From Coffea arabica (lineage: Eukaryota > Streptophyta > Magnoliopsida > Gentianales > Rubiaceae), in contig NC_092323.1 in assembly GCF_036785885.1 (NCBI RefSeq), positions 11,230,501 to 11,294,500 on the forward strand: a stretch of DNA of 64,000 bases, written 5' to 3'. The notes under the pieces are model-generated. The model was given only the letters and a program-made list of their open reading frames with translations. It made no database searches and was not told where the DNA came from. Each line of letters starts with the position of its first letter. Position 1 is the first letter of the stretch. A program made the translations under genes and the position numbers. Shown piece by piece: positions 22,140-48,330 of the stretch.

Positions 22140-22196
22140 TTGACTTCTAGAGTTTGTCTTTTTCCGTCGGCGGATTCCTTCGAGGTGATGACAATT
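22140..22196. promoter_or_regulatory. Recurring GC-rich block 1 (upstream of ERF A)
   Basis: TTGAC (22140-22144) followed by a core CCGTCGGCGGATTCC (22164-22178). On the ERF coding strand the core reads CCGCCGACGG: a GCCGAC DRE/CRT core overlapping a near-GCC box. The block recurs at 27.11, 33.05, 42.46 and 48.28 kb. It lies about 5.8 kb upstream of ERF A, or about 4.5 kb once the two transposons between are discounted. Function is inferred only. Confidence 0.5.
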
Positions 22197-22539
22197 TTAG
22201 AAATATAAGATTCAACAACAAGGACTTATATATCTTTACTATACTAAAGGCGTCAGTTGGCTTAGCTACAGTGAAAGTGGGCCGGTTATAGCGTGATTTC
22301 TGTGAACTTGAGGGGTGATTTGGTCTTTCGGCATTCAGTGGTGGTGGCTTTGCTGGAAATTTCCTGCTATCCCACAATTTTGCCACTTTGGATACATTGA
22401 GCCCAACAGAGATAGAGAGAGCGAGAGATGGTCCTGCACTCGTGGCATCTACCTTTGACTTTGATTTTCAAACCCTCATCTTACCTTTTAAACATTTTCA
22501 GTATAGATTGTAGAAGAAACAACTTACCATGTTGGACGA

Positions 22540-23581
22540 AATTCGTACTCATTTTTCGTAGCCATTTTGTTGACAATATTAATAAAACTCAAACCCATTG
22601 TTATAATGGCTCGATACTAGAGGTGACAAATCAACCCACCTAATTAAATTTACCTATACCCGTCCATGAATAGATGGTATAAGTTCAAAATTTTTGAATT
22701 AAATTTTTATATTAATTTTTATAGTACTTAGTTCAAATTTTTATATTCTTATTATTCAATTATTAAATAATAGATAATTTTGTAACATAGAGTATAAATG
22801 AAAAAAATTGGTAATTAAATTTATTGAACATTATAAATAAATATTTAAAACTAATAATGGGTACAAAGAGTGGTATAAATTGATAACTTGTTTTGCAAAA
22901 ATAAATTTAAACGAGTTTACCAAAAGTTAAAATAAATAAGTTGTAAATGGGTAATTGAGTTACCCAATTCATTTTTTGATTTACCCATTTATACCTATCT
23001 AATTAAATGGGTATAAATGAGTTAATTTACTTATACCCATTACCCATTTTATCCAACCCAAATTCGTACTCATTTTTCGTAGCCATTTTGTTGACAATAT
23101 TAATAAAACTCAAACCAATTGTTATAATGGCTCGATACTAGAGGTGACAAATCAACCCTCCTAATTAAATTTACCTATACCGGTCCATGAATAGATGGTA
23201 TAAGTTCAAAATTTTTGAATTAAATTTTTATATTAATTTTTATAGTACTTAGTTCAAATTTTTATATTCTTATTATTCAATTATTAAATAATAGATAATT
23301 TTGTAACATAGAGTATAAATGAAAAAAATTGATAATTAAATTTATTGAACATTATAAATAAATATTGAAAACTAATAATGGGTACAAAGAGTGGTATAAA
23401 TTGATAACTTGTTTTGCAAAAATAAATTTAAATGAGTTTACCAAAAGTTAAAATAAATAAGTTGTAAATGGGTAATTGAGTTACCCAATTCATTTTTTGA
23501 CTTACCCATTTATACCTATCTAATTAAATAGGTATAAATGAGTTAATTCACTTATACCCATTACCCATTTTATCCAACCCA
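22540..23581. repeat. Tandem duplication, 2 x 521 bp
   Basis: Units at 22540-23060 and 23061-23581, head to tail, differing at roughly ten positions by eye (about 98% identical), so recent. Each unit contains about 78 bases of host sequence (from attcgtactc) followed by the body of a hAT-type element. Confidence 0.9.
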
Positions 23582-23614
23582 AACCCACCAAAGTCACCCA
23601 TTTCAACACCTCTA
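22618..23614. mobile_element. hAT-type miniature element, duplicated in tandem
   Basis: A complete copy spans 23139-23614, with ends TAGAGGTGACAAA and CAACACCTCTA. A truncated copy at 22618-23060 lacks the last 33 bases. The flanks ctcgatac (22610-22617, repeated before 23139) and ctccatac (23615-23622) match 7 of 8, giving the target duplication. The element must have inserted first and been duplicated later with its left flank. Confidence 0.8.
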
Positions 23615-24200
23615 CTCCATACTTTATATTCAAGCCCAACATTTTTGTTTTCCCACTTTAGCTTTCTTGCTTTGTTTTACCTTGAGAAGCAAGAATTTCA
23701 TGATAAACTGAATTTGTTCTTCACTACGATTTCCCTTGTGTTCCAACAAAGGAACGTTTAACTTAAAATAAATATTTCAACCAGAGGAAAAAAAACCAGT
23801 TTAAAAACAACTACATATAACGGTTGAAATCAATCTGAGTCTATCACTCCATCCCCCCTCTTTTCTTTTATAGTGTAAGTGAAAGAAGAGCTCGTTATTA
23901 TAAACGACCTATATTCTTATGTGATAACACAGTACCGAAACACTATGGTTTCTTTTGTTTACACATCTGACATTTTTTTCATCCAACGTCTTTAAAGAAT
24001 CAGTTGATCTTCATTCTACATTAAATGTATATATCTATATACATACACTGATACATCTATACCTTCTATACAAAATGACTTTCTAATTATCGAATGCAAT
24101 CATATTACCAATTATCATCATTTAACCTACTCCATAAAATTAAATTAAATTAACACAAGTTAGGGCAACCTCGCGCGTAGTACGAGGCCTAAAAAACTAG

Positions 24201-25074
24201 TATATATATATGCAAATGAACTTGAACTATTGCCCCGTTACCTTCTTCTTTCTGCTAATTATTTTGTTAGTTTTACTACTATTACTTTATCTTCTGGGGG
24301 CTTGCGTGATAACTACTGTGGCTTTTATGGCTTTCTCTTATCTCTGGGATTACCGAGTAATTCTACTTTGAACCCAAAATTGTTGCGCTTTGGACTTTAC
24401 GTGGAAAGTTTGATCCGTCAATTTTATGCTAGCAATTGTTAATTTCATCTTCTGTTTGCTTTGATTTGGATCAAAAGCTGCAAAAGATTTTTAAAAACTA
24501 GCAATACTATAGCTCAATCCAATAAATATTTTGCGAATTCTGGGGCAAACGCATTTTTTTTTTTAAAGACCAATTTCTTATTTGGGTGGGAATGCGTAAA
24601 TTTTATTTTTTTAAACTGGGTTAAGAGGTAAGGTTAATTGGCCTTCCTCATAATTTTTGCATCATTTATTGATAATACAGACTAAATTCTATACCAAAAT
24701 CCTCATCTACAGTTTTTTATAGCATGAATTAATATTACAACAGCCAGTTTTAACGTTAAAATTAAAAATTATTTCGATGATTTTACACAAGGAACAGATG
24801 GTGCACTACATGACAACCAATAAAGAAGTTAGGAAGCCAAGTATATCTTGGAGAGACAAGTTTCCAAACAACTTAAATTTGAAGATGCTAATATTGACAG
24901 CCAAAATGGTTTAAGTAGTTGCGGTGCAAAATTAGATGAGCCCTTGCTACCTTATCCAATTTTAATTTTAATGTTTGATTTTTGATGATTTTGTACAAAA
25001 ACAGATAGTACACCGGAAGACAATTTGAGAATTAATTAGCCATTTTCTGACTGCAAGAATCTATGGATAGAAAT

Positions 25075-25109
<35 letters not shown>

Positions 25110-25363
25110 GTCATCACATGTTGGCTTTCTCTTGACGAGACTGTTTTCTTTTAATTAGTACAATGCAGGAGCGGTCGAAATTCTCTGCAGCTTCCTTTTC
25201 AAGGGGATACTTCAATTGGACTCCAACTGGAGGCTTTGGCCTGAAAATATTCTTAGGAAAAAGTTGAATCCTCTTCTGCAACTGAAAAGAGAATATCCAT
25301 TATAAACGACTTGGACCAAATTCTGATGTGTATATTAGTATTTGTGTTAGTGATTTAAAGAAA
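24201..25363. other. Intergenic, one unidentified coding-like stretch
   Basis: AT-rich. On the minus strand about 25160-25292 has an acceptor-like ttttcag, then about 40 open codons reading NIFRPKPPVGVQLKYPLEK. I do not recognise it; it may be a gene fragment. An (AT)14 microsatellite lies at 25079-25106. Confidence 0.35.
25079..25106. repeat. (AT)n microsatellite
   Basis: Fourteen AT units without interruption; likely length-polymorphic. Confidence 0.9.
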
Positions 25364-26716
25364 GGGATGATTTCAAAAACCTCCCCTGTGATTTCTAATA
25401 ATTGCAGAGACCTCCCCTCAAACTTATTGAATTACACCTATCTCCCTTGCTTTTACCGTTTATACAACAATATAGGCCTAAAAGACTATTTCTTTTTTTT
25501 CAAAAAGCCTAAACTACCCCTTTTTTTACAAAAATAAAATAAAAATTATTTTGCCAATTGCTTTCTTCCATTTGTCAACCAAACCCACTATACTAACAAA
25601 CAGGTCTAACAAATACTCTAATTCCAAATTCTAAACCCAATCAATTCCATCATGCATTCAATTCTGAAGGTTCGTTCCATTTTTTAGAAATATGCTTAAC
25701 ATATGGTTCCATGGAATGGTTAAACTCACAATCAACTGCCCGATGGTTAGGCTTGCATAATCTTTAACATAGGATGCCATGGTTTGATTCCATATAAGTG
25801 GCTCAACTCCTACTACATGAGCCACATTATGGCCTTGAAGAAAATCTTTAGGGGAGACTTAGACATGGATGGGATTAATTAAGTTTAAGAGAAGGAAAGA
25901 CATCATTATGACTATAGAGATTTTCAAGAAATTCATTTTGTTAAAAACCAAAATTCTATTTGCAACTAATCACACCCCAAATTTCAAACCCAATGCCCAC
26001 ACCTTCTCAAAATAAAATAATTTAGCCTACCATTAAATCTTCAAACATGTTAACGTCTTAAACACAGAGAAGAAACTTTATCTCTATAGCGAAACCATAA
26101 CCAAAAATTGTCAAGTACAAAAAGAAATATTAATGTACTTATTAACATCTTAAAAAGTTTTTTGGATGGATGATAGACAAATTAGCAAATTTACCAATTT
26201 CAATCCCTCTTCCTCTTTTGGCCGATGATTGCATTATTATTGTGTACCTCTTCATCTCCTTTTAGTTTGACCATAAAATCAGATTTTACTTCAACCATTA
26301 AATCTAATCCCTTAACTAAACTTGCGATTTGGCAATTCCAACGAGAAGAAAGGAGGAATAGGAATATATAGTAGAGTTTGAGAGATCACTTGTGGTGTGA
26401 TTGGCTGCAATTATAAGCAATGGTTGGTGGTAATTTGAGAGCGAGTTATAGGAGGAAGGGGTTGATGGATGAAACCGGAGTAACAGTAAGTGAGAGAGAA
26501 TCGTTGTTGGCTATAACTTGTAAACAGAATAGCCGAATAGGTTAGGTTTCTTTTTCTATTTTTTAAATTTTATTTTATTATACTATGAATTATTTATTAA
26601 GTGAAAGTCATTATAGTTATTTTATTGTAACAAGAGAGGTCAGTGTAATTTGTAAAACTTGAGAGAAGCGGAGTGAAATTGTCATAAAACTCAGCGGAGG
26701 TTTGTGAAATTATCCC
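25364..26716. mobile_element. Mutator-type non-autonomous element, 1,353 bp
   Basis: Inverted ends GGGATGATTTCAAAAACCTCC and GGAGGTTTGTGAAATTATCCC, flanked by a perfect 9-bp duplication ttaaagaaa (25355-25363 and 26717-26725), the Mutator signature. The inner ends also pair (CCTCCCCT against AGCGGAG). The 1.3 kb interior has no transposase and no recognisable captured gene. Confidence 0.87.
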
Positions 26717-27079
26717 TTAAAGAAAACAAGGCAACCAGATTTTTGGATAAGAACTTCTGTTGGAAGATAATCATGAATGAAAGCTAGAGTTTTTCTATCA
26801 TTCAGTAAATGCGGCAGATTTCAGACTGAGAGAAAAGAAAACCACCTATTTTCCAAATTAGGTCAGGATTCAAGAGCATTAAACTATATATATATGGTAG
26901 ATAAATTAATGATATGAATGTTTTTTTTTTTCATTTGCAGCTGGCGTGTGCATGGTGACGTTGGCCTTACAATAAAAATTCTTTTTCAACCTTGTATGAA
27001 GCAAGTAATATAATGTGCCCATCCAAATTTGGCCCTCAATCGAGATTAATTTTCTAATGAGATTGTCATTTTTTTTTGG

Positions 27080-27150
27080 AACATTATGACCCTGAACTTT
27101 GTCATTTTCCGTCGGCGGATTCCGCACGAGGACACCTCCGCGTCGAATAA
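27080..27150. promoter_or_regulatory. Recurring GC-rich block 2 (no ERF directly downstream)
   Basis: ATGACCC (27086-27092), TTTGTCATTTTCC, then core CCGTCGGCGGATTCC (27109-27123) and GGACACCTCC. Closest to blocks 1 and 4. The next minus-strand gene downstream is ERF A, 10.7 kb away, and block 1 lies between them, so this copy is an orphan, perhaps of a deleted A-type gene. Confidence 0.5.
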
Positions 27151-29464
27151 GGAATAAAAGCTTAAAAACTTTAGCACAAAAACCATAGAAAATCGACGTA
27201 TCGGACCCAGTACTTCTTCTTTATTACCATGAATGCTTGGTCCGAGTCATGACCTGGTGGTATTGGCAGTATCCTTTTGGGTGCCCCTAAACCAAATTAT
27301 TGTAAAGCAAATCCCAGAGTCCGGGCCGGGGTCAAGGCTGAAAATTCACAGCTCCTGCAACGGGCAACGGTGCAGACCAACTTCGGTTCTTCCCCTATCA
27401 CACGAAAATCAAGGCAAAGGTATGCAAAGTACACAGATTAATTTGTGATAGTGATCTATTGATTTTTATTGCACCAATGATCATCACAATTGTAAGGAGT
27501 GGCAAAATGATCGTCAAAATCAGGAGGAGCAAGATGCAATGCTTGCAATATGAGACAACATTTCATATTCGATCTTGATGGCTTGCATATGCATATCATT
27601 TTTCTCCTGTTCTAATTTTGCATGTATTGTTGTTTAGCCTCAATTTGGGATATGTCTTATCTACATTGTTATTTTTTTACCAAATTGCGCAAGTTATATC
27701 TCTCTGGAAGACATGACATAAACATTATAGTGGAGAAGTTCAACTTGACAGTTTGAATATTAAAGATTGAATCTTATAGAATTCAAAATCTGGATAATCA
27801 AATTTATTAAAGTTGAAACGTCAGAAACGCCAATGTATAGAACATGTCAAACAAAACATCAACCTGTAACTTCCCTAGGTAAATCTAGACCTCGGTGTTC
27901 TGCAGTGATTGAAAACTAATTTGAGCTCGTAGATATCAATATAGTAACTGGAAAAAATGTAGCTTCGAAGTAGCTAGAAGTAAACGACAGCATATGAAAC
28001 ATAAAGAACTCCATTAGTTCTCAATGTTCTGATGCTTCTTGGCCGTGTAGCCATCCATCCATGCCCTCCATCTCCATCTCCATCTCCCTCTATCCTAAGC
28101 TGGGTAGGGATTGTTGGGGAGTAAGGAGGCAGTGGTTGGAGTAATTTATTTACTAATAATATGGTGTCAATTGGGCTTCGCCACCGAGAAACGGACCAGT
28201 TCAGCCCAAGTTAACCTTTACATCTTTGCACCTAAGATCAGCCCACCAAATTTAGTGTATCGATTCACTAGGTAGTACTCTTTTTTTTTCTTCTTTAATA
28301 AAAGCAAATTTCATTAACAGATCCCTGAAATTCATCCAGTTTGATTTGATTTACATTACTATTCTGATGATAGGTTAAACATGCATTAGACATTACAGAT
28401 TTGTAATTTAACAGATGGATCTGACATAATACAATAGTTCCTTAATCCTTACTTTGTCAAACTAGTAGGAACAGAATCCTCCTCCAGGCTCCATCTTTCT
28501 TGGCTCTGTACTTAATTCCCAGCTTGTACCAATAAACATTAAGCATGTTCTTGGCTAAAAAATACACCGCGTTTTAGGTTGAATTCAAGCTTGCACAAGC
28601 TCATATAAGGAGCTCGAACTTCTTCTCTCCTAAAACCACTAAATCACCAAGGAAGCTCTCACAAAGCAACAAGCTAGGTAAAGGTGTGTTGGTTAAATAA
28701 ACGTTCCTTTGATCTTTTGAATCATTTGAAGCTGAAATTATGTGCTAAAGAAAGCTGAAAATTGATTATGGGAGGAAACTATCAAAATAATTTTTAAAAC
28801 AACAGCTGGTTCTTTGGAACTTTTAAACGAATTTATGCTTTAAAGAAATGTTTACAAACGTAGCTTCTTAGGATTGCGTAGAAAGCCACAAAGCCCTTGT
28901 AGTCTGCGGTATAAATTTTAGTTTGAGACAAAGTTGGCATTGCAAAATAGAAGACTCTCAAGAGGTGTCATTTTCAATCTAAAACAAGTACACAACATTA
29001 ATTCACTGGATGCCCCCAATTGACAGAACACATACCACCACTTTTGCTTCTTGTCTTCTCTGCCCAAAATTCCTCAGACTATTACTTTCAAAAGTTAACA
29101 GGTGCAAATGTCAATGGTGATGAATTATTGAACCAACATAGATAGAGAGATTAAATTCATTCTTACATGGATGATGAGCGAGAGATGTTAAATATTTTAT
29201 CGCAAAACTAATTAATTGTGAGTGGAGCGCTTCATGATTTTTATTAATTGATTCAGTTAGTCTTGACTAACAGATATGGTATTAGTTCTTTTTTTAAAAA
29301 AAAAAAAATTATTTTGACACTGCGAATTAATGTAAGAGAAGAAAAGAAAGTAATTTATCAAGAGCAGTAGGATGGAATTACATTTTATAGCAACAACTAT
29401 ACGCAAACGCGGGATTTGTGGACATAATCACATACAATTAGGCAAACCAAAATAAGCAAACTCC
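27151..29464. other. 3' flank of ERF B
   Basis: No gene is supported. A short CATCTC repeat lies at about 28060-28090. The rest is AT-rich single-copy-looking DNA. Confidence 0.35.
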
Positions 29465-30124
29465 CTAAGTTGTTGTTGTACTTTCAGATGATGAACTTAA
29501 TAGCTCCTCCAGCAGATCAGCTCCTAAGTCTTCAAGCTCCAGAACAATTTTTTTTGGGTTTATGTCTTTATTTTGATTTCTTCTGCGTTTTGACAGACTT
29601 CTAATCTTGTGTGTTTCCTTGAGAACAGCAGCTGGTGAGCAACCATTCTCCCAATTGTGCTTAATCCCTTCAAGTGATTCTTGGACTCGATCAGCTGGAA
29701 AGTTGAGGGACGCCATGGGACCCCGCAGTGAAAATGCTGCTTGGTCATAGGCAAAAGCAGCTTCCTCCGGGCTGTCAAATGTTCCAAGCCAAACTCTCAA
29801 TCCATGCCTTGTTGAATCCCTGATTTCTGCTGCATATTTTCCCCATGGACGCTTCCGGACTCCTATGTAACTCTTTTCTTTCTTGTTAGATTTCTTTTTC
29901 AAGCTTGAGGTGACCTCTTCTTCATGACTAACTCCTTTGCAAGAACCTGTTTTGATTGACTCTGTGGCTTTGGATTCCCCACTCTCATGTTCGGTTTTCG
30001 AAGTTGTACTATCGTCAAGAAAAACGTTATCATCCCACCAGAATGAAGACTCAAATGGGAAGAATTCAGAGGCAGCAGAACCCATTTCTAGATTGAAAAG
30101 GTTGAAGCTCTGCATCATAGCCAT
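29465..30124 (-). CDS. ERF B: AP2/ERF transcription factor, group IXc
   Basis: Intronless, 219 aa from the ATG at 30124. The frame stays open upstream to 30229, but a TATATAAA box (30162-30169, minus strand) lies inside that extension, so the longer start is unlikely. An ATG at 30085 giving [17 protein letters not shown] aligns best with the start of the 45.8 kb paralog and could be the true start. The AP2/ERF domain covers residues 86-142 of the 219-aa form, with [16 protein letters not shown] and WLGTF intact. The C-terminus carries an EDLL motif, [15 protein letters not shown]. Subtype B marks are [15 protein letters not shown] and [15 protein letters not shown]. Predicted nuclear GCC-box-binding activator; targets are not evident. 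Confidence 0.92.
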
Positions 30125-30290
30125 GTTTATACCTACTTTTGGAATCAAGCGGAGCACAGCGTTTATATATAGTAGGAATTCAACTAGAAAGATAAGGCTG
30201 ATGGATAATTTGACTTCTTCTTGGCGCAATAATGGTTTCCTAGAAGAGAAGGACCATGAATCTGGGGTTGGATCGAGTCAAGGGTACTTT
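30125..30290 (-). promoter_or_regulatory. Core and proximal promoter of ERF B
   Basis: TATATAAA at 30162-30169 puts transcription start about 10-15 bases before the ATG at 30124, or further if the ATG at 30085 is used. At 30258-30287 lies a stretch conserved in the B' promoter (46566-46605): GAATCTGGGGTTGGATCGAG then TCAAGGGT. On the coding strand it contains CTTGACT, a W-box core bound by WRKY proteins. A partial second copy (tcgagtcaagggtacttgct side) lies at 30334-30352. Confidence 0.55.
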
Positions 30291-30828
30291 TTTTTCAACA
30301 GCCTGAATCAGACTTTTGTTGTTTTATAAACCTAATCGAGTCAAGGGTACTTGCTAGAAAGTTTTGACGAAGAAGATTTCATCGCAATTAAGACACAATA
30401 AATCTACAGAAGTTTTCAATTTGATGCAGGTGAAGTTGCGGGGCCACGGTCCCTCCATCTACCTCAACTCTATGCCCTAAATCCAAAGAACATGGACAGT
30501 AAACGTTAGCCTGTGGGGTTGTTGACGTACATCGAAAGAACATGGACATTAGCCACTTGGTTCTTTTTTTGTTTTGTTTTATAGCATGCCACCAATCATA
30601 GGAGCATAATAACTCGTAAACCATGGAATAAACACCCATATAACAATAATGAGACTGATAATCCCTCTCTCCCTCTCTCTTTAGGCAAACTAAGGTTAGT
30701 TATTGATAATAAAAGAAAACATCCAAGACTTTGTTGAGAACTAACCCCAGTATGCACATATCTCTTCTCAATAAAATCTCGCATGGTTACAAGTACAAAA
30801 GCAGTTCAAACTGTCTTAGAAATCCTAC

Positions 30829-30997
30829 GGGCTCTCGCGGGTAGTCCAACTGATTTCTTAGTCTGGTAATTATCAGCAGATTTCGTGATCGACTTTCATG
30901 TGTTATCTTATTGTATATTTTTGGAGCAGGGCTTTACACATTCACTTTACACATTCTCAGAGAATTAGTCTAGTCGAAAAGTTAGGATATCTCTAAG

Positions 30998-31025
<28 letters not shown>
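30829..31025 (+). mobile_element. SINE with A-tail
   Basis: An 11-bp duplication agaaatcctac (30818-30828 and 31026-31036) flanks about 197 bp ending in an A-run. The body (TCGCGGGTAGTCCAACTGATTTC, GTGATCGACTTTC) matches a second copy at 40.84 kb, which defines a family. Box A/B likeness is weak but present. Confidence 0.78.
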
Positions 31026-31028
<3 letters not shown>

Positions 31029-31036
31029 AATCCTAC

Positions 31037-33014
31037 CGTGATGAAATTGAGTATATCCATTATAGAATGAAAGTATATTTTTTTATTAAAGAAAATCTAA
31101 ACAACCGTTGGCACAGGGCTCAAATTAAATTGAGGTCATGATCCAACATTGAATTGAGGGAACTTGAATTCAATCAATCAGCTCAAAATCCTCAAGTTTC
31201 AATATCGCATTGATTGATTGATGGACATCAGCTAGCCAAGTGACGCATCATAATCGTACGGCTTTGACGTCAGCCTCGACCAAGTGGCTGGTTTGATTGC
31301 CTAACGGAACATTTATGAGGCCGCCACATTTTTGGCTTTTTGCTATGAAAAATGGGTCAATCCGAACTCGACCCATTTGGTCCAAAAAAAAAAAAAAAGT
31401 TTGTTCAGTCTAATCTTTAATTGAATCGGGTGCAGTTTGGACGTAAATATTAAACTCAAAGTAAATATATGCTGAGTTTGGACCTCTTTAGATTCAGTTC
31501 AAACCTAACTAAAGCCTAACCCATGTATAAGTATAATTATATATATAATATTCATAATTTATAATTATACATATAATAACATAAAACATTAATAATTTAT
31601 ATATAAATTTATAGTAATTCATGATTATTAAATAGATTGAATTTTATATATACTGATAGTGTATGCATTATCACGATTAGATCCAGACACATATGCAGAA
31701 GTTAGATTTTAAATTCAAAATTTACATAATTGTTATTTATTCAAAGTTGATAGTGTATACACTGTTAATGTAAAAAAGACTAATCCTATTAAATATACAT
31801 TATATATAATTATGTATTAATTTTGAGCTTGGGCTTAAATCGATTTGTGCTTGAAACTTCTAGAAAAGTATGAGTTAAGTTTGAGTTTATAATTTGGGCC
31901 CAAGCTCAAAAACTTGAAACTCCAAAGTCCTATCAATTTATGAGTCGAGTTTGACCTTTGTTAAAACCCTACTAACAAAACTCGATCCACAGCCCTAGTG
32001 ACAAATGCATTTACAGAAAGAAACGTGCTGAGTAAGGCCATTTATTTTTAGATTAATTTCAAGGTAGTTATTGGAAGTAAAGAGGGCAGGTGAAAAAGAA
32101 CTCTCTTATATTATTGAAGGCAAAAAAAGTCAAGACATGTCTCTACTAATTAAGAATACAATCTTTCTTCTCAGGATAACGCTACAGCACAAATTTTTAT
32201 GTCACGACTTTCTTTAAAGAAGGGGAGGGGGGATGGGGAGGAGGAGGAGGAGAAAGAAACCATGCTTATGCATCTCTAAGTTAAGAACTTAAAATTGCAT
32301 TCGGAGTTGAAAGGGGTGATCGTGTTATTCCGGAACGTAACAACTTTTAACTGTCTGTGACAATATCATTGGTTGTAGTTTTCTAACTCTGCCTTGGAAA
32401 AATTGAAAACATAAAAAGATAAATTTAGGCCAGCTTTGCTGGAAGAAATGCTATCACTATCCCGCATGCAAATTGGCAAAGGACTATATGTTTCTCTAGC
32501 TAGGAAGATATTATTTGGTTACGCTACAGTTTCGTAGGCTATAGCAAGAAATTCCAAAGGGACCATTGGCTGATGAGGATTGATAAACACAGAACAAATA
32601 GAAAGTTTGGTATCAATGACTAAGACATTGTAAAAATCGCTGTTACGTTTTATCCATCGATATCAATATCAATGTCAAGTTGCTTGTATCATTGAGTAAC
32701 ATTTTGCTGCAGCTAGCAGTTGATTCAGGATGTCTTTAGTAGCATTTTTTTTAACTTCTTGATTTATCTAGTATGAATATTCGGCCTTTAATTAATTTCA
32801 CTTGACATAGCGATCGTTGCTAATTAATTTCAGGATTTTATCCTTTACAGTTTCTTAAGCAAAGAAAATATAAATATAAATGAAGCAAGTAATAAATTTT
32901 ATCTTCGAGTATGACTGATTCGAAGGAGAGATTAAACTAAGACAAAACGGAGCCAGAAAAAAAAAAACTGAAATATGGGACGTGAAGACACAGACTGCGA
33001 TGTTTTGCATGCGG
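31037..33014. other. Intergenic, degraded repeat
   Basis: No gene is supported. About 31340-32000 has the composition of an old hAT element (a CCACAGCCCTAG end near 31990) but only one end can be seen. AT-rich otherwise. Confidence 0.3.
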
Positions 33015-33080
33015 TTTGACCCTACATGCCTTCTTTGTCTCTTCCGTCGGCGGAAGGTCCGGGCGACACCTCCTTCCTTT
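33015..33080. promoter_or_regulatory. Recurring GC-rich block 3 (upstream of ERF B)
   Basis: TTTGACCC (33015-33022), TTTGTCTCTT, then CCGTCGGCGGAAGG (33044-33057) and CGACACCTCC. About 2.9 kb upstream of ERF B. TTCCG...CGGAA forms a short imperfect palindrome around the core. Best match in its 3' half is block 5 upstream of B'. Confidence 0.5.
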
Positions 33081-33868
33081 ATCCATTTTTTCTTCTAGTG
33101 AAACCGATAGCATTAAATACCAAAGGAAGCAGAAAATCTGCCGGTGTTAAGGTTTTTATTGTAAAACAAAAGCGAAGTTTGTATGTTGTCTAGGGTTTCC
33201 TCTATTATTTAATTAATTTAGGGGATAACCTTCAAGAGAAAAGTATGTATTCTGTTGTTCCTTCGTAGGAAAAGAAGCGACCAGTTTCCTTTTTCTCGGA
33301 AAGATTTTTTTTTTTTGGGGTAATAGTTAAAAATAATTAAGGGAGATTCTAAAGTCCCTTTTGGGTAGTGATCAGAATAGGATTTCTTTTGACGTATTTG
33401 GAGTTTTACTCTCTTGTAAAGCTTCTTGTTCCTATAATTTAATGAAGCGAGTTTCTTTGCTCAAAAAAAAAAAAAAAATTTGTCCCTTTTGGGTGTTGTA
33501 TTCTCAACTTAAATTTGTTGTTTGATGGTAAAATAAGTATTCTAGACCCTTAAATTGTAACAAGTTCAAAAATTTAAAAATTTAAGCTAATATCATCACT
33601 GAGAAATGCATATTACGAGAATGATACTAAAAGAAACCATAGAGTTTTCTAACAATTTTGTGTGATCACCATTACATAATAGTTTGTGGTTTTCTTTCTT
33701 TTTTTTTTTATTGCAAATAGAAATTAGTTATTCTTTGTTTTTAATCGAGTGGTGCTGAAAATTGAAGTTGAATGTCCTGCATAAATTGACTAATGCCAAC
33801 GAAATTTATTACGTGTTGTTTGGCACTTAGCAGGGCGACCGGAAAGTTTGAAACTTGAAAGTCAAATA

Positions 33869-33970
33869 TTGTTCATCATTACCAGTCTTGGTGGTTAGGT
33901 GGCAACTCCACAGCCACCCTGAAAGACCAAATGGCCGGGCCCGACGGCGGCGGAAGTTTCCGTCCCACCA
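33869..33970. promoter_or_regulatory. Second conserved block type, copy upstream of ERF B
   Basis: GC-rich stretch with GTGGCAACTCCACAGCCACC, AAAGACCAAATGGCC and GACGGCGGCGGAAG. It aligns with 49489-49583 upstream of ERF B'. GGCGGC is the complement of the GCCGCC GCC-box core. About 3.8 kb from ERF B. Confidence 0.45.
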
Positions 33971-37782: not shown

Positions 37783-38367
37783 TCACTTACTTCTGGAATT
37801 ATTAGTTTCAGATAATAGCTCATCTAACAGATCAGATCCCAAGTCCTCAAACACCAAAACATCTTCTTGCTTAACTTGTTTCCCTTTTCCTCTACGTTTT
37901 GATGCAGTACTTTTCATCCTGTGCGCCTCTTTCAGGGCTTCAACTGGCGATGAGCCATCTTGGTAACTGCAGATGACCATATTCCTTAATGATTCCTGAA
38001 CTTTCTCGATGGGGAAATTGAGGGCGGTGGTTGGGCCTCGCACCGAAAGGGCAGCTTGGTCATATGCTAAAGCAGCTTCCTCTGCAGTAGCAAAAGTTCC
38101 AAGCCAAACCCTCATTCCGTTTCTTGTGGAATCCCTTATTTCAGCCGCATATTTTCCCCATGGCCGCTTTCGAACACCTATGTAGTGCTTCTCCTTTTCA
38201 GCTGGCTCTTGTTGAATGCTAGTAGTAAAAAAAATGGAGCATTCACCACTGTTATTTTTGCTGGATGAACAACTAGTTTCCCATGAGGATTTGAATACCC
38301 CATCAATAGTATTGCAGAAATCTTGATCTTCGTCTTCCATCCATGAAGATTCCATCCTAAAATTCAT
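37783..38367 (-). CDS. ERF A': AP2/ERF transcription factor, group IXc
   Basis: Intact intronless coding region, 194 aa. The acidic, serine-rich N-terminus is longer than in ERF A. The AP2/ERF domain lies at residues 62-118 and differs from ERF A at about 6 of 57 positions by eye, against about 11 from the B type. ERF-class residues (AAEIRD, WLGTF) are intact. C-terminal EDLL motif [17 protein letters not shown] basic KRRGKGK patch follows the [10 protein letters not shown] block shared with ERF A. First ATG chosen; Met5 is an alternative. Paralog of ERF A by tandem duplication; predicted nuclear GCC-box-binding activator. A TTGACT on the plus strand near 38430 is a possible W-box. Confidence 0.93.
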
Positions 38368-39353: not shown

Positions 39354-39675
39354 CAATGTTTTTAAACTCGAATTGGAAAGTGAACTGAAAGACCTTTTGG
39401 TTCATGGTTTGATCGATTCAATCGGTTCAACTTCGGTTTAAAGGTATAATAATTTTTTATTTATTTTAATATTAAAATTTTGAATAAAATAAATATTTTT
39501 TAGAAAATAAAAATTGGTTGAACCTCCTGATTTTTATCAGTTCAATCGGTTCTTGAGCGGGTTTGATTGGTTCAATTGATTCTTTAAGTTATTCATTGAA
39601 CCGGACCGAAAGCATATCCAATTCATGGTTTGACCGATCAAACGGGCCAATCTAGTTCAGTTTTCAAAACACATG
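39354..39675. mobile_element. hAT-type miniature element, related to 18.75 kb copy
   Basis: Starts CAATGTTTTTAAAC and ends near GTTTTCAAAACACATG, with the same GGTTCAAC/GATCGATTCAATCGG internal repeats as the 18747-19071 element, in inverse orientation. No clear target duplication remains, so it is older. Confidence 0.6.
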
Positions 39676-39700
39676 TACAAGGTCAACATAAATACAAATT

Positions 39701-39876
39701 GAATATCGCACCTCTTTTTTTTTTTTTTAATGGGTGTTCCCCAGGGAGTGGAACCCGCAGAATAAATCCCCTGCCCCCGTAACTTGCTGGCAGTGAGACT
39801 TGAACCAGAGACTAAGCCCCATCTTCAGCAAACCCATGCCACCTGACCAAGCCCCGGGGGCGAATATCGCACCTCT
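39701..39876 (-). mobile_element. tRNA-derived SINE, 146 bp
   Basis: Minus-strand element at 39716-39861 between perfect 15-bp repeats gaatatcgcacctct (39701-39715 and 39862-39876). The minus-strand head has a box A-like GGTCAGGTGGC and box B GGTTCAAGTCT, and the tail is an A-run (T-run 39716-39728 on the plus strand). A different family from the 4.9 kb and 40.8 kb SINEs. Confidence 0.87.
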
Positions 39877-39901
39877 ATCATGAATTTGCACAAAAAAATT
39901 A

Positions 39902-40545
39902 AGGAATAATTTTAGAAACTTCCTATACCTTCTTGTTTGACAATTGCAGCCACCTTTCCCGAGGTACACTAACCTGCTTTGGTATTCTCAAAACACTATA
40001 TTAACCTACACAAGATCTATAAATTCTAAGTAAAAAAGGAGTTTAAAAGAGAAAAAAAAAAAGAAGAAACCCTTTCTCATTAATACCATCCTATCCAAAG
40101 GTTCTAACCTCATTTCGAAACTTTATATTCTATTCTCAATTAATCTAAATAAACTTTTTCTCAATTATACAAAGAGCCGACTAGGTAGTGCGAACGCATT
40201 TGTCAAAAGGAGTCTCTTTAGAAATTGTTTAGCAAAACAATTTTTTTAAAAAAGTCCAAACACTAGAAAAGGATGCCTTCAATACATGGTTTAAATTTTC
40301 TTGCAAAGGGTCACCATGAAATTTTTAACAAGCACATAACAATTATGTTTGGCTTTTTTTTTTGACATTTAATTTGGTTAGCAATCAAATAGGGGTAATA
40401 CAGGATATATTGGACTTTTTGTACTTGGATCACCAATTGTTATTAAGATATACTTTTTAGAGAAGGTTTCTATAATTCTTCAAACCTCAGGAGAGGTTGT
40501 TATAATTATTAAAAACTTTAGGATAAGTTTTTAGAATTATCTAAA
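39902..40545. mobile_element. Degenerate Mutator-type element
   Basis: Ends AGGAATAATTTTAGAAACTTCC and GGATAAGTTTTTAGAATTATCT resemble the 25.4 kb element. Flanking nonamers (aaaaaatta and aaaaactaa) match 7 of 9. No coding capacity. Confidence 0.5.
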
Positions 40546-40820
40546 AACTAACCATGAATACTAATTTGTTCAAATAATATTACATTATTGTAGTACCATT
40601 CGTTGCCTCTTTCTCCTTGGTCTTATATCGCCTTCCACACCTTGTTAGATTAGACATATTTTTTCGGGACTAAATTTGATTAATGTTTGCTCCTGTTAGA
40701 ATTTCTTATACTCAAGTCCCCTCGCTTATTTTGGTCCTTGATATCAGGGAGGTGGCTTTAGCCCTCGGCTTACCTCCCTCTCTCTTGTACGAAATTTGCA
40801 TACTTCAATAATTCAATTAT

Positions 40821-41010
40821 AATTCAATTAGTTGTCCCCGCGGATAGTGCGACTGGTTTCGTAGTCTGGTAGTTACCAATAGGTCCCGTGATCAACCCTG
40901 TGTACTATTTTACTGTATATTCTTGGGACAAGACTTTACACAATCTTAGGACATTAGTTTGGTGGAAAGGTTGAGATACCCTAAGTGAAAGAAAAAAATT
41001 CAATTAGTTG
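40821..41010 (+). mobile_element. SINE, second copy of the 30.8 kb family
   Basis: 162-bp body at 40835-40996 between perfect 14-bp duplications aattcaattagttg (40821-40834 and 40997-41010). Shares GCGGATAGTGCGACTGG, GTAGTCTGGTAGTTA and GTGATCAACCC with the 30829 copy. Non-coding. Confidence 0.85.
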
Positions 41011-42426
41011 GTGTGCACCAAATAGTTTACCACCACTGGTGGTTTTCTTAAGAAAAATAGAATACCAAGTATGAATTTCACCGGAAAATTCTCTGAATGC
41101 TACTGTGATGAGATACTTTGATGCTGACATAATATAATCTGAATATACTGAAAGTGCACTAGAAAAAAAAAAAGAAAAAACCCAAAAATTTTGAAAAAAA
41201 AAACTTCCCACTGAAACAATAAAATTATATTTAATATTTTCGATGTTATATCAATAGCTAAGAAATTTTATTCATGTGCTATCTGGCTCCAATAAAATGT
41301 ATAGTTATCTGTAATAGCAGTAGAAAATACACATCTACAAGTATTGATGGACCCCACTCTCATAAAACTATTTTTAGGTTGCCCATGAATATTCATATTA
41401 GTGCAAAATTTTGTGTACTTTTTTAGTAGGAAGATCGAATTAAAAGCGAATGGTTTAAAGTCAAATCAGCTTCAATTTTAATACGTTAACTCCAAATTTT
41501 TTTAGACACTAGATAAGGAAAAAATTTTCATTCTAAATACCTTTTCTTTCTTTTGTTTAAAGAAGTCGAAGAAATTAAGAAACAGGAAAGGAAAATGAAG
41601 CGGCTTGGTAACTATATTTAAAAAAAAAAAAAAATGAAGTGGCCTGGTGGGAATTGCACCCTCATTATAGGACGGGAAACAAATATGAGGATACCCAATT
41701 CTCTTCATTCCAAGGATTTGTGTTGTCAAGTACTGGAAGAAAAGTAAGCTGTTCAATCTTTTCAAAAAGATAACTTTTGCGAACTGGAATGACCTTCCGA
41801 TGTCAATTCACCCTATATTACTCCATTTAAGGGTTCAATCCAAGCAGAGCATGATGTGTACATCATGCAATAAAATACAATTTTCACTAAAGTTCGAGTA
41901 CGTTTAAACAAAATAGATGAACTGGATCGTATCGTTACAAGCACAAGGATTTTGAAAGCTACTTTAATTAATTATCTAAAAGATTAGTGATGAATCTTTC
42001 TGTATTTGGCGATAAGTCAGGATGACAATATTGTAAAAAAGTTGTACAATTGATTCACTATCTTCAGTGACTTCAGCTATTGTCATCAACTCATCGCACA
42101 TTAGCACCACAAGTATAATATTTGTGAAACATTTGTTATCCTTCCTTTTATTAAAAAATGACAGATTACCTAAAAAATAGATTGTAATTAAATGCATCTC
42201 GGCCTCCACCTACTTTTTTTTTTTTTTTTTCAACCGAGATCGGATGGTAATGCATGCATGAAAATACATCATTCATTTCATCATTAAAATTCATCATTCA
42301 TTTCATCATTCAAAAATGCAGAATAGGTGCACCTAGTATTTGGTTGGCAGCCCATATTTTAATACTCCTGTACACACAAAAAAAACCCATATTTTAATAT
42401 GCCAAGCTTGTTCATTAGTCTTGATT
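41011..42426. other. Intergenic, no gene seen
   Basis: AT-rich with A- and T-runs; a short direct repeat of CATCATTCATTTCATCATT lies at about 42267-42315. No supported gene. Confidence 0.35.
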
Positions 42427-42515
42427 TTGACCCCCGGAGGCCCTGGACTTTGTCTTCTTTCGTCGGCGGATTCTGGACGAGGACAGTGCCCTTAGTAATA
42501 GGAACTTAAAAATTG
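42427..42515. promoter_or_regulatory. Recurring GC-rich block 4 (upstream of ERF A')
   Basis: TTGACCCCC (42427-42435), TTTGTCTTCTTTCGTCGGCGGATTC (core 42461-42473) and ACGAGGACAGTGCC. About 4.1 kb upstream of ERF A'. Beyond the core it shares AATAGGAACTTAAAAA with the flank of block 2, so homology runs past the core. Confidence 0.5.
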
Positions 42516-43580
42516 AATTACCTACTCCTCCCCTCCCCCTCTCTCTTCCTTGGGGCTGAGGGTTGGGGCTCAGATATACCTGATGCAAGTAATTGATGTT
42601 ATTGCACAAGATATGAGTATCAAACCTTGTTTATTGGTATGTATTAGTTTTCTCGTCGAACCAACTCAATCAGTCAATTGTGAATTTAACAATCATATGA
42701 GAAATGATAGAGCTACATGTGCAGATGAAAATGGACTTAAAAGAGTAGCAACTTTCGGGTCTTAAAAAGCCAAGATACGTAGAGTATGATGAAGTAAATT
42801 AGACATTATACTACATCTACATGGCATGATTTAGACTTTGGATAAGTTTCATTTTGCTTTGTAGCATATGGTTTAGAACTTTACAATTTAAACTTCTTGA
42901 TTTGGCTCATCTTGTTTCACATTCAACATGTAGTGCTTTTATAAAGGCAATTGTAGAAGGCGTCTTAATGGTGCTTGTTGGGTGAACTTTTAAGGCCAAA
43001 TTTCTCTTGCTAGGCATAAATATTGGACTATCCTAAACTTGTATATATGGTCCTTCCTCCAAAGAAGAAAAAAAAAAAAAAGAGGAAGAAAATCTTGTAT
43101 GGTGCAATGATAAATTTCAACTGTCCCTAGTATATCTACATCTCGCTCTACCCATAGTGGTAACCTGGAATTTCTTTTTTATCTCGACTCTGTGACAGCT
43201 AGGCAGAATCCGATGTTCTGTAGAACAATGTGACTAGGATTAAAAAAAGAATAAAATAAAAATGAAGAAGTTTTTTTTTTAAGAATGTTTTATTTTGGAA
43301 GAAGATAGGTACCTGTAAATGTAATTTAAGACGGTTGAAATTTCTTCGAAGTTATCATGACCCATTTGTTGATTAAGAAGCATCCGTCCTTTCTCTTCAT
43401 GCTTCTTGTCTCTTATTGTTTTAACAGTGATTTCTGTCTAAGGGGTTTTTTTTACATATTAAACTAAATAATCATTTTGCCATTTTCAAGTTTATCCGTT
43501 ACTTCACTTTTTTGAACTTTTAGGCATCCTACGTTGCTTGCAGCCGTCCTATTTATGTAGAATGTCTCACTCCTTTTGTG
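42516..43580. other. Intergenic, no gene seen
   Basis: AT-rich DNA between block 4 and a hAT element; no protein features in either strand. Confidence 0.35.
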
Positions 43581-44185
43581 TAGGGATAGCAATGGGGCGG
43601 GTCTGGGGCGGGATCCCTCGCCCGTCCCCCCCACCAAAAAACTTCCCTTGCCCCTGCCCTTGTCCTCCCTGCCCCGTCCCGTTTTCCCTGCAGGTGCTCG
43701 CGGTTGATAATTTGATTTTTTTTTTCTAAGAGCCTTTATTCAATGGATCAAATCTAAATTCAAAGAATAAACTAATATACGGAACTAAAAAAAGTGAAAA
43801 ATGAAAAATGAAAAATGAAACAAGAAAAGTGTTGAAATAAAATACTAAGAAAATTAAGAAACTCAATTGGATTGTATAAATAACATTTGGAAATACTCAT
43901 AGAACGCGTAATATGCTTGTACCAAATATCAACTAGGAATTTGGATAGAAATGAGATAAAAGTTATGTTTATTTAGCAAATATTTTAAGTTTATTATTAT
44001 TAGATTATATAATATATTACATTTATTTATATTAATAAATTGAAGCAGGAGACGGGGCAGGGGTTGAGGCAGGGGTATCGTCCCCCGCCCCATTTAAAAC
44101 AGGGGGAGAAAAATTCCCCCCAGTCCCGCCCCATCCCCCACCCCATTACTCCCCCTGCGGGACGGGCATCCCGTTGCTATCCCTA
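43581..44185. mobile_element. Non-autonomous hAT element, 605 bp
   Basis: Ends TAGGGATAGCAA and TTGCTATCCCTA, with a perfect 8-bp target duplication cttttgtg (43573-43580 and 44186-44193). Arms of GGGGCGGG/CCCGCCCC around an AT-rich core, as in the 7.9 kb copy. No transposase. Confidence 0.92.
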
Positions 44186-44193
44186 CTTTTGTG

Positions 44194-45834
44194 AACAACT
44201 TTGTAGAAAATTTTATCAAATGTTTCAAAGGGTTTGGCTGTGAGAGGTCTAATGTGTTAATTTTTTGTAAAAGTAAATTTGGGAATTAGAATCTAAATGC
44301 ATGATGTATAATAATTGTGAATGCATACATTCACATAGTAAATTAAATATAATATAGTTGTATTAACAAGTTTCCTTGATATCCGTTAAAAAAAATCCTA
44401 TTTCAGCCTAAGTTGAAAAAGAAGTAATCTCTTTACCAAATAATGTCGTTGTCAACTGTGCAGCCTTCGTGCCAGCAAGGTATTTTTATTGATTGACTAC
44501 TTCCTTCATCTCCTAGACATGCAAAGGCCAAGTTAAAATAACTGATGCAATTGTACGACTGTTTCATAACTAATTGAAAAAACTTCACATCAACAAATCG
44601 ACTTTATGTAAATTCGTTTGTTTTCCTTCCTTGATTAGCTTTTTAATTATAAGCGGACCCCCTAAACCATGTTAATGTTTCTTTTCGTGAAGTATTGTAA
44701 GTTTTGGAAATTTGATCATTGGCTTATAAGCTGTAACAGAGAGGGACAACAACGGTCTGTTCTCCTGTCTCTGTACATGCAAGGGAAAGGGTTAATTACC
44801 GTCAAAATCCCTTCAATTTGTTTCAAAGTGTTGATGTTATCCTTAAACTACTAAAGACTTTGTCTTTGTTTACAGGGAAAAAAAAAATAACTAAGAAACT
44901 GGTCAAGATTATAGCCACACGACTTGAATTTTGACTTTTACATAGACAAGAAACCAAACCATTACGGGCAAGTCATCCGTAGCTAGGTTTTATGGACTTG
45001 CATGATGCACGATAAAATAATTTTTTCTTTTCAAAAATGTTCGGAACTGAAAGGTTTTCAGGAATAATGCCTGAACAATATTTCCCTCTTCTGGTACTTG
45101 AACAAAATAAATAAATAATATAAGAATCCCTTCTGGCTCCCTGGCTCTGTGTATTTCTTTTAACCTTTATTGGATCCCTAATGGAGTATGGTCTTAATAC
45201 TCTAAACATAGGGAAATATAGATTTCTTCTTGATCAATTTGACTGTTTTTTCGAAAGCATAAACATAATATATACTTCATAGTGCAACTATATATGACTA
45301 AAGACACTTGAGCTATTGGCTTAAATAAAGGTCAAATTACTGGGCATTACTATATATATACGTGCAGATTTTGAGATTTAAGCCTGAAATATTTGTATTG
45401 CATCGCACATAATTAATTGCACTAAACAAACTACAAGGAAGAGAATGACAACAGAGAGGGCACAGAAAGCAGATAAAGAAAGCAGGTAGTTATCTGAAAG
45501 TGAAAGATGGATCACATGTCGGTCTCCAATTTACCAAAACCTAATATAATATTAAAAATTTTAATACTATCAGATCACAATTTTACTTGTTAGCTCCTAC
45601 ATTTTTATCAATTTGCAAAAAGTAAAGTAGGCATTTTAATCTTGCTATAACTAAGTGAAATTTAAAAAAAAATAAAAATGCTGAGATTGGAAGTAGGAGA
45701 AAGTGAAGTAGCTAATTATACATAAGAGGGAGGCTAATTACGTTTTGTTTATTCTAAATAGGCATACATGGGATTAACTATGGAATAAAAAATTACGAAA
45801 AGGGGAAATGAAGGCAAGGATTTTGAGTTTCTCA
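44194..45834. other. 3' flank of ERF B'
   Basis: AT-rich; no gene, no clear mobile-element ends. Confidence 0.35.
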
Positions 45835-46407
45835 TTAATGACTACTAGCGGCACTTTCAGATGAGGAACTGAGAAGCTCCTCCAAAAGGTCAGCTCCCAA
45901 GTCCTGAAGCTCCACAACAACTTTTTCTCCTTGTTTTTCTTGATTTCTTCTTGCTCTTTTTGACATGCTACTCCTGATTTTGTGGGTTGCCTTCAGAACC
46001 GCAGCTGGTGAGCAGCCATTCTCCCAGTTATGCTTAATACCTTCAAGTGATTTCTGGACTCGATCCATTGGAAAGTTGAGGCTAGCCAGGGGACCCCTCA
46101 TCGAGAAAGCTGCTTGATCATAAGCCAAAGCTGCCTCTTCTGGGCTCTCAAATGTTCCTAGCCAAACTCTCATTCCATTCCTTGTTGAATCCCTGATTTC
46201 CGCTGCATATTTTCCCCATGGACGCTTTCTTACTCCTATGTACTGCTTTTCTTGCCTCTTGGAATCTCTTTTCAAATTTAATGATTGAATAGCTTCAGTG
46301 GTCTCAAGTTCTTGTTTAGGAACCCTATTGTTGTCAAGAAACCAGAATGAGAATTCAGAGGAGAAGTTCTGATCAGGAGTTGGATTCTCATAGGATGAAG
46401 AATCCAT
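45835..46407 (-). CDS. ERF B': AP2/ERF transcription factor, group IXc
   Basis: Intact intronless coding region, 190 aa. Short acidic N-terminus with aromatic FSFWFLDNN, comparable to ESSFWWDDN in ERF B. AP2/ERF domain at residues 56-112, about 6 of 57 positions different from ERF B by eye; [16 protein letters not shown] and WLGTF intact. The [15 protein letters not shown] block after the domain is identical to ERF B. The C-terminus has the EDLL-like [16 protein letters not shown], with Gln in place of the usual Glu at the start. First ATG chosen. Predicted nuclear GCC-box-binding activator, tandem paralog of ERF B. Confidence 0.93.
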
Positions 46408-46680
46408 CTCTAGCTAAAACTGAAGGGTTTGTGGTCAGTTCTCTTGCATAAAAGTTGGGCTTTAAAAAGCCCTGGCCTTTTTTTTTTTTGGGGGGGGTTG
46501 TATTTGACCTTTTAAAAAAAATAAAAATCGGTGCAGTATTTCTTTATGACAAGAAAAGGGTTGAGGAATCTGAGGTTCGAATTGGATGGATCAAGTCAAG
46601 AGTCCGTGGTGGAAAGTTTCCAAGGAGAAAATGTCATATGATTTATATTTGCAGAAACTTATGTTATATTTAAGGAGGTG
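46408..46680 (-). promoter_or_regulatory. Proximal promoter of ERF B'
   Basis: 46566-46605 (GAATCTGAGGTTCGAATTGG, then ATCAAGTCAAGAGT) aligns with 30258-30287 of ERF B and carries a TTGACT W-box core on the coding strand (46595-46599). TATA-like TTTTTAAAG lies near 46462. The T/G-run at 46478-46498 is low-complexity. Confidence 0.5.
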
Positions 46681-48254
46681 AAGTTAGGGGGTCGCCTTCG
46701 GATAGTTCCTCAATGTTAATCTAAGATTCTAAATTAAGCCCACGAGCAAACAGAACTAAGAAATGTAGAAACAAGAGATTTTGGAAATCTTACGTAGCCC
46801 ATAGGCTGCAAGTCATTGGAGTATATCTGTAGCACGAGCTGGGTGATGGGTTGCCAAAGATCGAGTCCCAAATGTGTAGCACGAGCTTTGACCAATATGC
46901 TGATATTGCCTAAAGAGTAGCCTAATTGGTGTCATCAAAAGATCAATGATTATAGACTCGAGGGAGCGTTGGCTTGAGTGATTCAGAGAGAGACAGAGAG
47001 TGTGTGTGTAAGCGAGAGATTTTTCAGGTTTCTACTCTTTCACTTGCACTATAAAAAAAATAATTATCGACTATTCCACTTTTTATTCAGCTATGGATGA
47101 CCAAAGCATGAAGGTAATTAAGTTGTTTGGTTCCCCCAGCCGCCTAAAGGCTTTGTGATTGGAAATTTTCCAAGTGCACAAGTTCCATTAGCATTGAAAT
47201 TAAAGAAAATTTCGCTATACTTTATTTGATTTGGCTAATGATCCCTAGTTAGGAGGGTTTTAGGTGTTAGTTTTTTTTTTTAAGTATAATTAGTTTGAAA
47301 AAGTGTCTAAATAAATAATTATAATCGCGTGTATTCACATGTTAAGTTATGTGCAATACACGTGTGTTAACGACTGCGTACTTAGATGCCTATTAGAAAA
47401 AAAAATCCTACTTTATTTTCGTCATAAATAATCACTTAGTTTGCAGTGTATATGGAAGCAGGGAGATAACAAGTGATGCAAATTCTAGATGATTTTTCCT
47501 TATCCAGTGTCAGCTCCAATTACCAGGAATACCATGAGTAGAAATTTTTCAAGAAAATAATCTTTGGATATTTGCGGTTGCATAAAAGTAGAGCAACAAA
47601 CCAAAAAAAAAGAAAAAAGAAAAATTTACATGCAGCAACTTTTGCAAGATTAGACCCCATGTCACTGTCACGCCTATGATCAAGTGTTTGCCTAGTTGTA
47701 ATGGTAAATGGTTTATGTGCTGGGAACATTATTATGGAAATACAGTCTTCTTGTAGGGTACCGGAATGATTGGAATTGCCAAAAAGAAGACTGGTTTAAT
47801 GAGGATCAGGAAAGAGAGAACAGAAGTAGATAGTTTAGAATGTTCATGTCATTGCAAATTTGTATAATTCTAAACACTTGTCTATTTGCTAGTAATTTCA
47901 CAAACATTCTCTGAACTATTTATTTTTGTTCTCTCTTTTCAATATGTCCTACCATGATTCATTAAATTCCACCCGATCGAGTGGATAAATTCACTCATCT
48001 AATAAGGAATACTAATATTTGTTTAATCCAAAATACTTGCTTCTTTGTTAAGGCTTGCATTTACATGGCCATCCTTTAAGGGTCAATTAGAAGGAGAATT
48101 TCACTAATTCATAAACCTTGAAAATATAAAAGGACAAGATTGATTAAATTCAATGGTCACTAAAATAAAACATTAGAATTAACTCTAGAATGTTCAAAAT
48201 GTACATTTTTTTTTTGGTAGGCGTAGTGTTTCATTCTGTACAAACCCTAGGCCT
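46681..48254. other. Intergenic, no gene seen
   Basis: AT-rich; short GTAGCACGAGCT repeats near 46831 and 46878. No supported gene. Confidence 0.35.
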
Positions 48255-48330
48255 ATGGTTCTACATCCTCCCTTTGGCTTCTTCCCTCCGCGGTAAGTCC
48301 TGCTGACGCCACCTTTTTCTTTATTTATTT
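48255..48330. promoter_or_regulatory. Recurring GC-rich block 5 (upstream of ERF B'), diverged
   Basis: CTACATCCTCCCTTTGGCTT, CTTCCCTCCGCGGTAAGTCC, then TGACGCCACC. It aligns with block 3 along its length, but the CCGTCGGCGG core is mutated to CCCTCCGCGG and the GCCGAC site is lost. About 1.9 kb upstream of ERF B'. Confidence 0.42.

Follow-up and report, generated by a model that had tools for sequence, protein, structure and literature searches.

Group IXc ERFs act in ethylene and jasmonate defence, and in Coffea arabica a tandem cluster of their genes lies at the locus considered here, a stretch of 64,000 nucleotides (C14:11230501-11294500, hereafter the window) of a 1.198-Gb assembly in which C13 is the apparent second haplotype and the pairing of contigs C1-C22 suggests 2 x 11 chromosomes. 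The window holds four of these genes together with five copies of a short block, and the cluster extends past it, so that each haplotype has six intact ERFs, all on the minus strand, and nine block copies. The blocks probably all go back to a single old conserved non-coding sequence (CNS), a distal cis-regulatory element of the cluster that is about 60-100 bp long and has a core of 21 bp.

Blocks and genes of the cluster

The original prediction, made from the letters of the window, described five recurring GC-rich blocks. The blocks are real, and all of them are found on the plus strand:

22140-22215 (core 22153-22173), plus strand: block b1, A-like core with a diverged flank, subtype uncertain, 5.8 kb upstream of E1
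27086-27160 (core 27098-27118), plus strand: block b2, A-type, beyond the 3' end of E2 and 10.8 kb upstream of E1
33010-33125 (core 33034-33053), plus strand: block b3, B-type, with a one-base core deletion, 2.9 kb upstream of E2
42427-42521 (core 42449-42469), plus strand: block b4, A-type, 4.1 kb upstream of E3
48255-48390 (core 48273-48293), plus strand: block b5, B-type, with three core changes, two of them abolishing GCCGAC, 1.9 kb upstream of E4
C14:11318481, 11320705, 11332945 and 11338027, all plus strand: copies A6, B6, A7 and B8, beyond the window

With a weight matrix derived from the copies the five blocks score 25.3-43.1, and the best other site of the window 10.8. Their cores show 0-1 changes from the consensus in b1, b2 and b4 and three in b5, and b3 lacks one base. 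Their GC-richness is relative: they are richer than the window (34.6%), but moderately so, reaching 43-58% over 60 nt.

The ERFs of the window are the following:

15820-16341, minus strand: E1, A-type group IXc ERF, 173 amino acids (an open reading frame (ORF) with a Pfam AP2 match at E=4.5e-16 and the C-terminal motif seen by eye)
29465-30124, minus strand: E2, B-type group IXc ERF, 219 amino acids counted from the ATG at 30124
37783-38367, minus strand: E3, A-type group IXc ERF, 194 amino acids
45835-46407, minus strand: E4, B-type group IXc ERF, 190 amino acids

A C-terminal EDLL (CMIX-1) motif beside one AP2 domain is the mark of a group IXc ERF (PMC7593309), and the genes of the window belong to this group on both counts, the AP2 domain being detected by Pfam in all four and the C-terminal motif DLGxDLLxELL being seen by eye in E1-E5 and E7. 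Four blocks lie 1.9-5.8 kb upstream of one ERF each (b1/E1, b3/E2, b4/E3 and b5/E4), just as had been claimed, and since all blocks are on the plus strand and the intact ERFs of the window on the minus strand, blocks and genes have one common relative orientation. Elsewhere in the window, an ORF at 602-1387 has a C2H2-type finger whose match to Pfam zf-C2H2_6 (20.5 bits) is below the cut-off of 25.

Two types of ERF can be distinguished in the cluster, A (E1, E3, E6 and E7) and B (E2, E4 and E5), and the subtypes of the blocks broadly track them. In A-type blocks (b2, b4, A6 and A7) the sequence continues after the core as ATTC(C/T)..AC.AGG, in B-type blocks (b3, b5 and B6) GGTCC or AGTCC follows, and B8 has further sequence in common with B6. 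Along the plus strand the cluster reads E1-b1-b2-E2-b3 / E3-b4-E4-b5-E5 / E6-A6-B6 / E7-A7-(dead B-ERF)-B8, broadly a repeated order of A-ERF, A-block, B-ERF, B-block. Two members of this series, both beyond the window, are broken genes:

C14:11316751-11317339 (L051 1151-1739), plus strand, opposite to the other cluster ERFs: E6, A-type ERF pseudogene
about C14:11334882-11335149, between A7 and B8: degenerate B-type ERF with an internal deletion (DNA alignment of 71% over 191 nt, E=1.8e-21)

In C14 E6 has a frameshift after the middle of its AP2 domain, and the C13 copy is broken too; since the sequences next to it match the neighbours of E7 in plus orientation but the gene itself matches E7 in minus, E6 seems to be locally inverted. 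The dead B-type ERF is claimed because of the DNA alignment and not because of the tblastn match that led to it, which is weak (27.7 bits, with 20.8 for the reversed control and 30.4 reached by 1 of 60 block-shuffled controls). This remnant lies about 2.7-2.9 kb from the seeming orphan B8, and the distance between b3 and E2 is 2.9 kb.

Confinement to the cluster and constraint on the core

A genome-wide search with the consensus, which the original prediction had proposed, finds matches that gather at the ERF cluster, with no wide spread, the repeat counts from the pattern and blastn searches being lower bounds. A 25-base pattern allowed up to three mismatches has 12 matches, all in the cluster, six per haplotype and all on the plus strand, and its reversed control has four. 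The 21-base core pattern is matched exactly 12 times, every time in the cluster, and 19 times with up to two mismatches (14 in the cluster), the seven matches with two mismatches being divided between the cluster (two) and other places (five); its reversed control gives 140 matches but differs in CpG content and is therefore an unmatched null. The inner 13-mer has 16 exact matches, 14 of them in the cluster, and because the reversed 13-mer is equally frequent (also 16), the evidence is the location of the matches and not their number: 0.0025 of the 16 would be expected inside the two cluster spans (185 kb in total). Four of the 12 matches of a B-type pattern are in the cluster, namely b5 and B6 in both haplotypes. 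Furthermore, blastn places A6 (8/8), b3 (2/2) and B8 (2/2) in the cluster alone, and b1 with its flank in seven places, two of them in the cluster and five matching a 34-bp stretch outside the block.

The surroundings of b1 have two peculiarities of their own. The 34-bp stretch, beside b1 at window 22227-22260, recurs at 97% on five other contigs and may mark one end of an inserted mobile element, as the C13 match stops just before most of it. At window 22539-23359, just past b1, there are two near-identical 300-nt stretches (99%), 521 nt apart.

The cores are also more alike than the genes. Synonymous divergence (Ks, NG86) is 0.85-1.13 in the six A-type pairs, 0.88-0.89 between E2 and either E4 or E5, and 0.21 between E4 and E5; the three values computed across the types A and B are 1.2, 1.7 and 2.6. 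Counting gap-free cores, which leaves aside b3 with its deletion and B8, the five A-like cores (b1, b2, b4, A6 and A7) differ pairwise at 1-3 of 22 sites, the B6 core from these five at 1-4 of 22, and b5 from all six at 4-6 of 22. A Ks of 0.9 corresponds to about 52% changed sites (Jukes-Cantor, by hand), and at p=0.52 the single-pair chance of up to 1, 2 or 3 core differences is 2.4e-6, 2.9e-5 or 2.2e-4, respectively, uncorrected for the choice of the best segment and for shared ancestry. Judged between paralogs, the core of this putative CNS is less divergent than coding Ks predicts, and has the low divergence that marks such sequences. Between the haplotypes, none of 176 core sites differs in eight copies (B8 left out), the chance of which is about 0.003 (by hand) at a divergence of 3.2%; this is the value for the flanks (181/5689) without the two that do not align, right of b1 and right of b4, which contribute 452 of the 633 differences found over 6632 flanking sites (sums by hand). 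The core contains three CpG sites (by eye), and CpG observed/expected in the window is 0.53.

Selection on A6 after the death of E6, which the exact core of A6 might have indicated, was considered and dropped: the nonsynonymous divergence (dN) of E6 from E7, 0.26 in the in-frame pieces, hardly exceeds that of the intact pair E3/E7 (0.21), and E6 thus seems to have died too recently for the question to be decided (a dN of 0.40 for E6 takes in its out-of-frame tails).

The blocks had been described as islands in otherwise unalignable DNA, which is true of most pairs but not of all. In the upstream segments of C14, the blastn pieces through the block span 38-143 nt in eight of nine pairs; b2 and A7 are still alignable over about 340 bp at 62% through the block, and the DNA upstream of E4 and E5 aligns in long pieces over several kb, at about 73-81%. 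The pairs A6-b2 and A6-b4 have extra common pieces, of 66 and 120 nt, 0.2-0.5 kb past the block.

Several observations weigh against an old regulatory element copied with the genes. Where flanks can still be aligned, part of the similarity of the blocks is residual duplication, and over 57-nt blocks the haplotypes differ at 9/456 sites (2.0%), a weak signal beside the 3.2% of the flanks. The subtypes come from alignments of eight and then nine copies, in which the trees are short and their support modest, and b1 is a clear member of neither type, standing among the B-types in the nine-copy tree with a support of 0.12. No ERF remnant was found between b1, b2 and E2 or between A6 and B6, so that b2 and B6 have no detected adjoining remnant. 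E5, which arose recently as a copy of E4, no longer has the block: the flanks still align on both sides, but a different segment of about 116 bp stands in its place in C14 and likewise in the C13 allele; the b5 core of E4 is itself damaged, having lost GCCGAC and differing from the other gap-free cores compared at 4-6 of 22 sites. The block is therefore not indispensable for keeping an ERF, and in E4 and E5 this control seems to have been loosened or altered. Finally, three related ERF loci outside the cluster (C6, C1 and C3) carry no block above control in about 9.4-9.7 kb of upstream DNA, a 26-position weight matrix giving best scores of 11.3, 8.1 and 15.9 there and 6.5-18.6 per 10 kb in reversed windows. 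In all, 150 matches were scored, and upstream DNA past 1.5 kb was covered at these three loci outside the cluster; at 18 loci (L032-L049) with 1.5 kb of flank the maximum of the matrix was 15.5, and the match with this score, in L034 and L035, was rejected as a block copy because it sits downstream of the gene.

Motifs, candidate binders and proposed mode of action

On the gene strand the core reads CCGCCGACG(G/A)AA...GACAAA. The original prediction recognized here the core of a dehydration-responsive element/C-repeat (DRE/CRT) overlapping a near-GCC box and paired with a W-box core. The first of these is borne out, GCCGAC being present on the gene strand in eight of nine copies (B8 by eye) and lost in b5. 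The GCC box (GCCGCC) is the target of ERFs, and the CCGCCG of the block resembles it, but on the gene strand no copy shows GCCGCC itself (0/8 in 150-nt windows, and none in B8 by eye). The DRE box is defined as (A/G)CCGAC (PMC7593309), whereas in the block GCCGAC lies inside a longer, nearly fixed 21-mer, so that a DRE alone does not explain the constraint. TTGAC or TGACC directly precedes the core in four of the five window blocks (b1-b4), as had been noted. The full W-box form (C/T)TGAC(C/T) (PMC4373269), its first base read by eye, occurs in five of nine copies (b1, b3, b4, A6 and A7), where it starts 12-22 nt before the core at variable spacing, and is lacking at that place in b2, which has ATGACC, and in b5, B6 and B8; a pairing of W-box and core thus holds for part of the copies.

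The small group IXc ERF AtERF96 favours the GCC box, its binding to P, CS1 and DRE boxes being 8-25 fold weaker; the W-box served as the negative control in these assays (PMC7593309). Given this preference for the GCC box, cross- or self-regulation by the clustered ERFs, as originally suggested, looks weak and doubtful, and the role of binder suits DREB-class factors better than these ERFs; that the putative binder is a DREB-class factor has, in our estimate, about one chance in three.

The block is most likely a putative enhancer-like distal CNS. From the present order of the cluster, the ancestral unit along the plus strand would have consisted of A-ERF, A-block, B-ERF and B-block, its ERFs being encoded on the minus strand, and about four such units may have been formed by tandem duplication and later partly eroded. 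The block would bind transcription factors and act on an ERF promoter some 2-6 kb away; most likely GCCGAC would be bound by DREB-class AP2/ERF factors, the TTTGTC half by partner proteins and the W-box of some copies by a WRKY factor, and the outcome would be stress-inducible transcription of the ERFs.

Plant CNSs are islands of low divergence tied to regulatory genes; their median length in comparisons with rice is 26-27 bp, and those of grasses are non-coding, often near transcription-factor genes and in many cases distal (>1 kb) (PMC3708275). The block agrees with plant CNSs in size, place and gene class; it differs in that the set consists of tandem paralog copies in one genome, nine per haplotype, which broadly track gene subtypes.

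Competing explanations and significance

A distal control module duplicated together with the ERFs, which the original prediction had preferred, is the best-supported explanation, as the matches gather at the cluster and neither an element family nor an exon was found. That the blocks form one control array used by all genes of the cluster, and are not private switches, we consider unlikely; the units have retained both A and B blocks, and b2, A6, B6 and B8, of which three have exact cores, are still there beside a missing or dead ERF and may accordingly serve surviving ERFs at a distance.

It is rather improbable that the blocks are the promoter or a conserved part of a separate plus-strand transcript, a long non-coding RNA or a short-peptide gene interleaved with the ERFs. 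Their single orientation, a TTAAAT-like A/T-rich motif about 60-90 nt after the core in several copies and the extra pieces common to A6-b2 and A6-b4 would suit such a transcript; however, no Rfam family is matched within the window, the consensus fold has four pairs and no compensatory changes, and the aligned pieces through the block are short in all the pairs but the 340-nt one.

Neutral DNA, still alike after a recent duplication or kept so by ectopic conversion between copies, is a very improbable source of the similarity. The copies did come from tandem duplication, and the flanks of E4/E5 and b2/A7 are still alignable, but the within-type Ks of the pairs other than E4/E5 speaks against a recent duplication, and conversion would be expected to homogenise the flanks too, most of which cannot be aligned.

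Only slightly less credence than this is due to the remnant of a co-duplicated protein-coding exon, proposed because some copies can be read as NPPTE on the minus strand. The minus frame does give PPT(E/K)xDK in six of eight gap-free cores, and in 150-nt windows all eight copies keep it open over 19-50 codons that take in the core. Its variable core sites, however, fall at codon positions 3, 2, 1 and 1, and the third positions of Pro-Pro-Thr are invariant among the six close copies, the opposite of what a coding sequence would show, although in two other frames two third positions do vary; moreover, the one-base deletion in the b3 core breaks the frame, and residues past the core are not kept (by eye). 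The exon is disfavoured by the variation in the NPPTE frame and the b3 break, and with these two signs and the absence of an Rfam match in the window the putative CNS is non-coding, as plant CNSs are.

The weakest explanation, a fragment of an unidentified dispersed repeat or transposon, has hardly any probability left: the region does hold mobile-element ORFs and the 34-bp stretch beside b1 has copies on five other contigs, but that stretch falls outside the block, pattern and blastn searches with the block find little outside the cluster, the confinement of exact cores to the cluster is a strong argument against a dispersed repeat, and neither many copies away from ERF genes nor an element family was found. 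A series of ORFs between E5 and E6 (L050 4940-8093) looks like a Copia-type retroelement, and an ORF at window 20439-20789 resembles the end of a Harbinger-type transposase.

None of the literature matches listed, from a search of limited coverage, gives an account of the block. As copies of a putative distal control module, the blocks offer a direct test of their effect on expression, since GCCGAC is intact at E2 and destroyed at E4, and the block is lost at E5. A 21-bp core almost private to one ERF cluster is a sharp handle for deletion, for binding assays and for tracing across species. If the split between A and B blocks is as old as that between A and B genes, the element would be expected beside genes of the ERF1 and ERF95-98 type in other eudicots.

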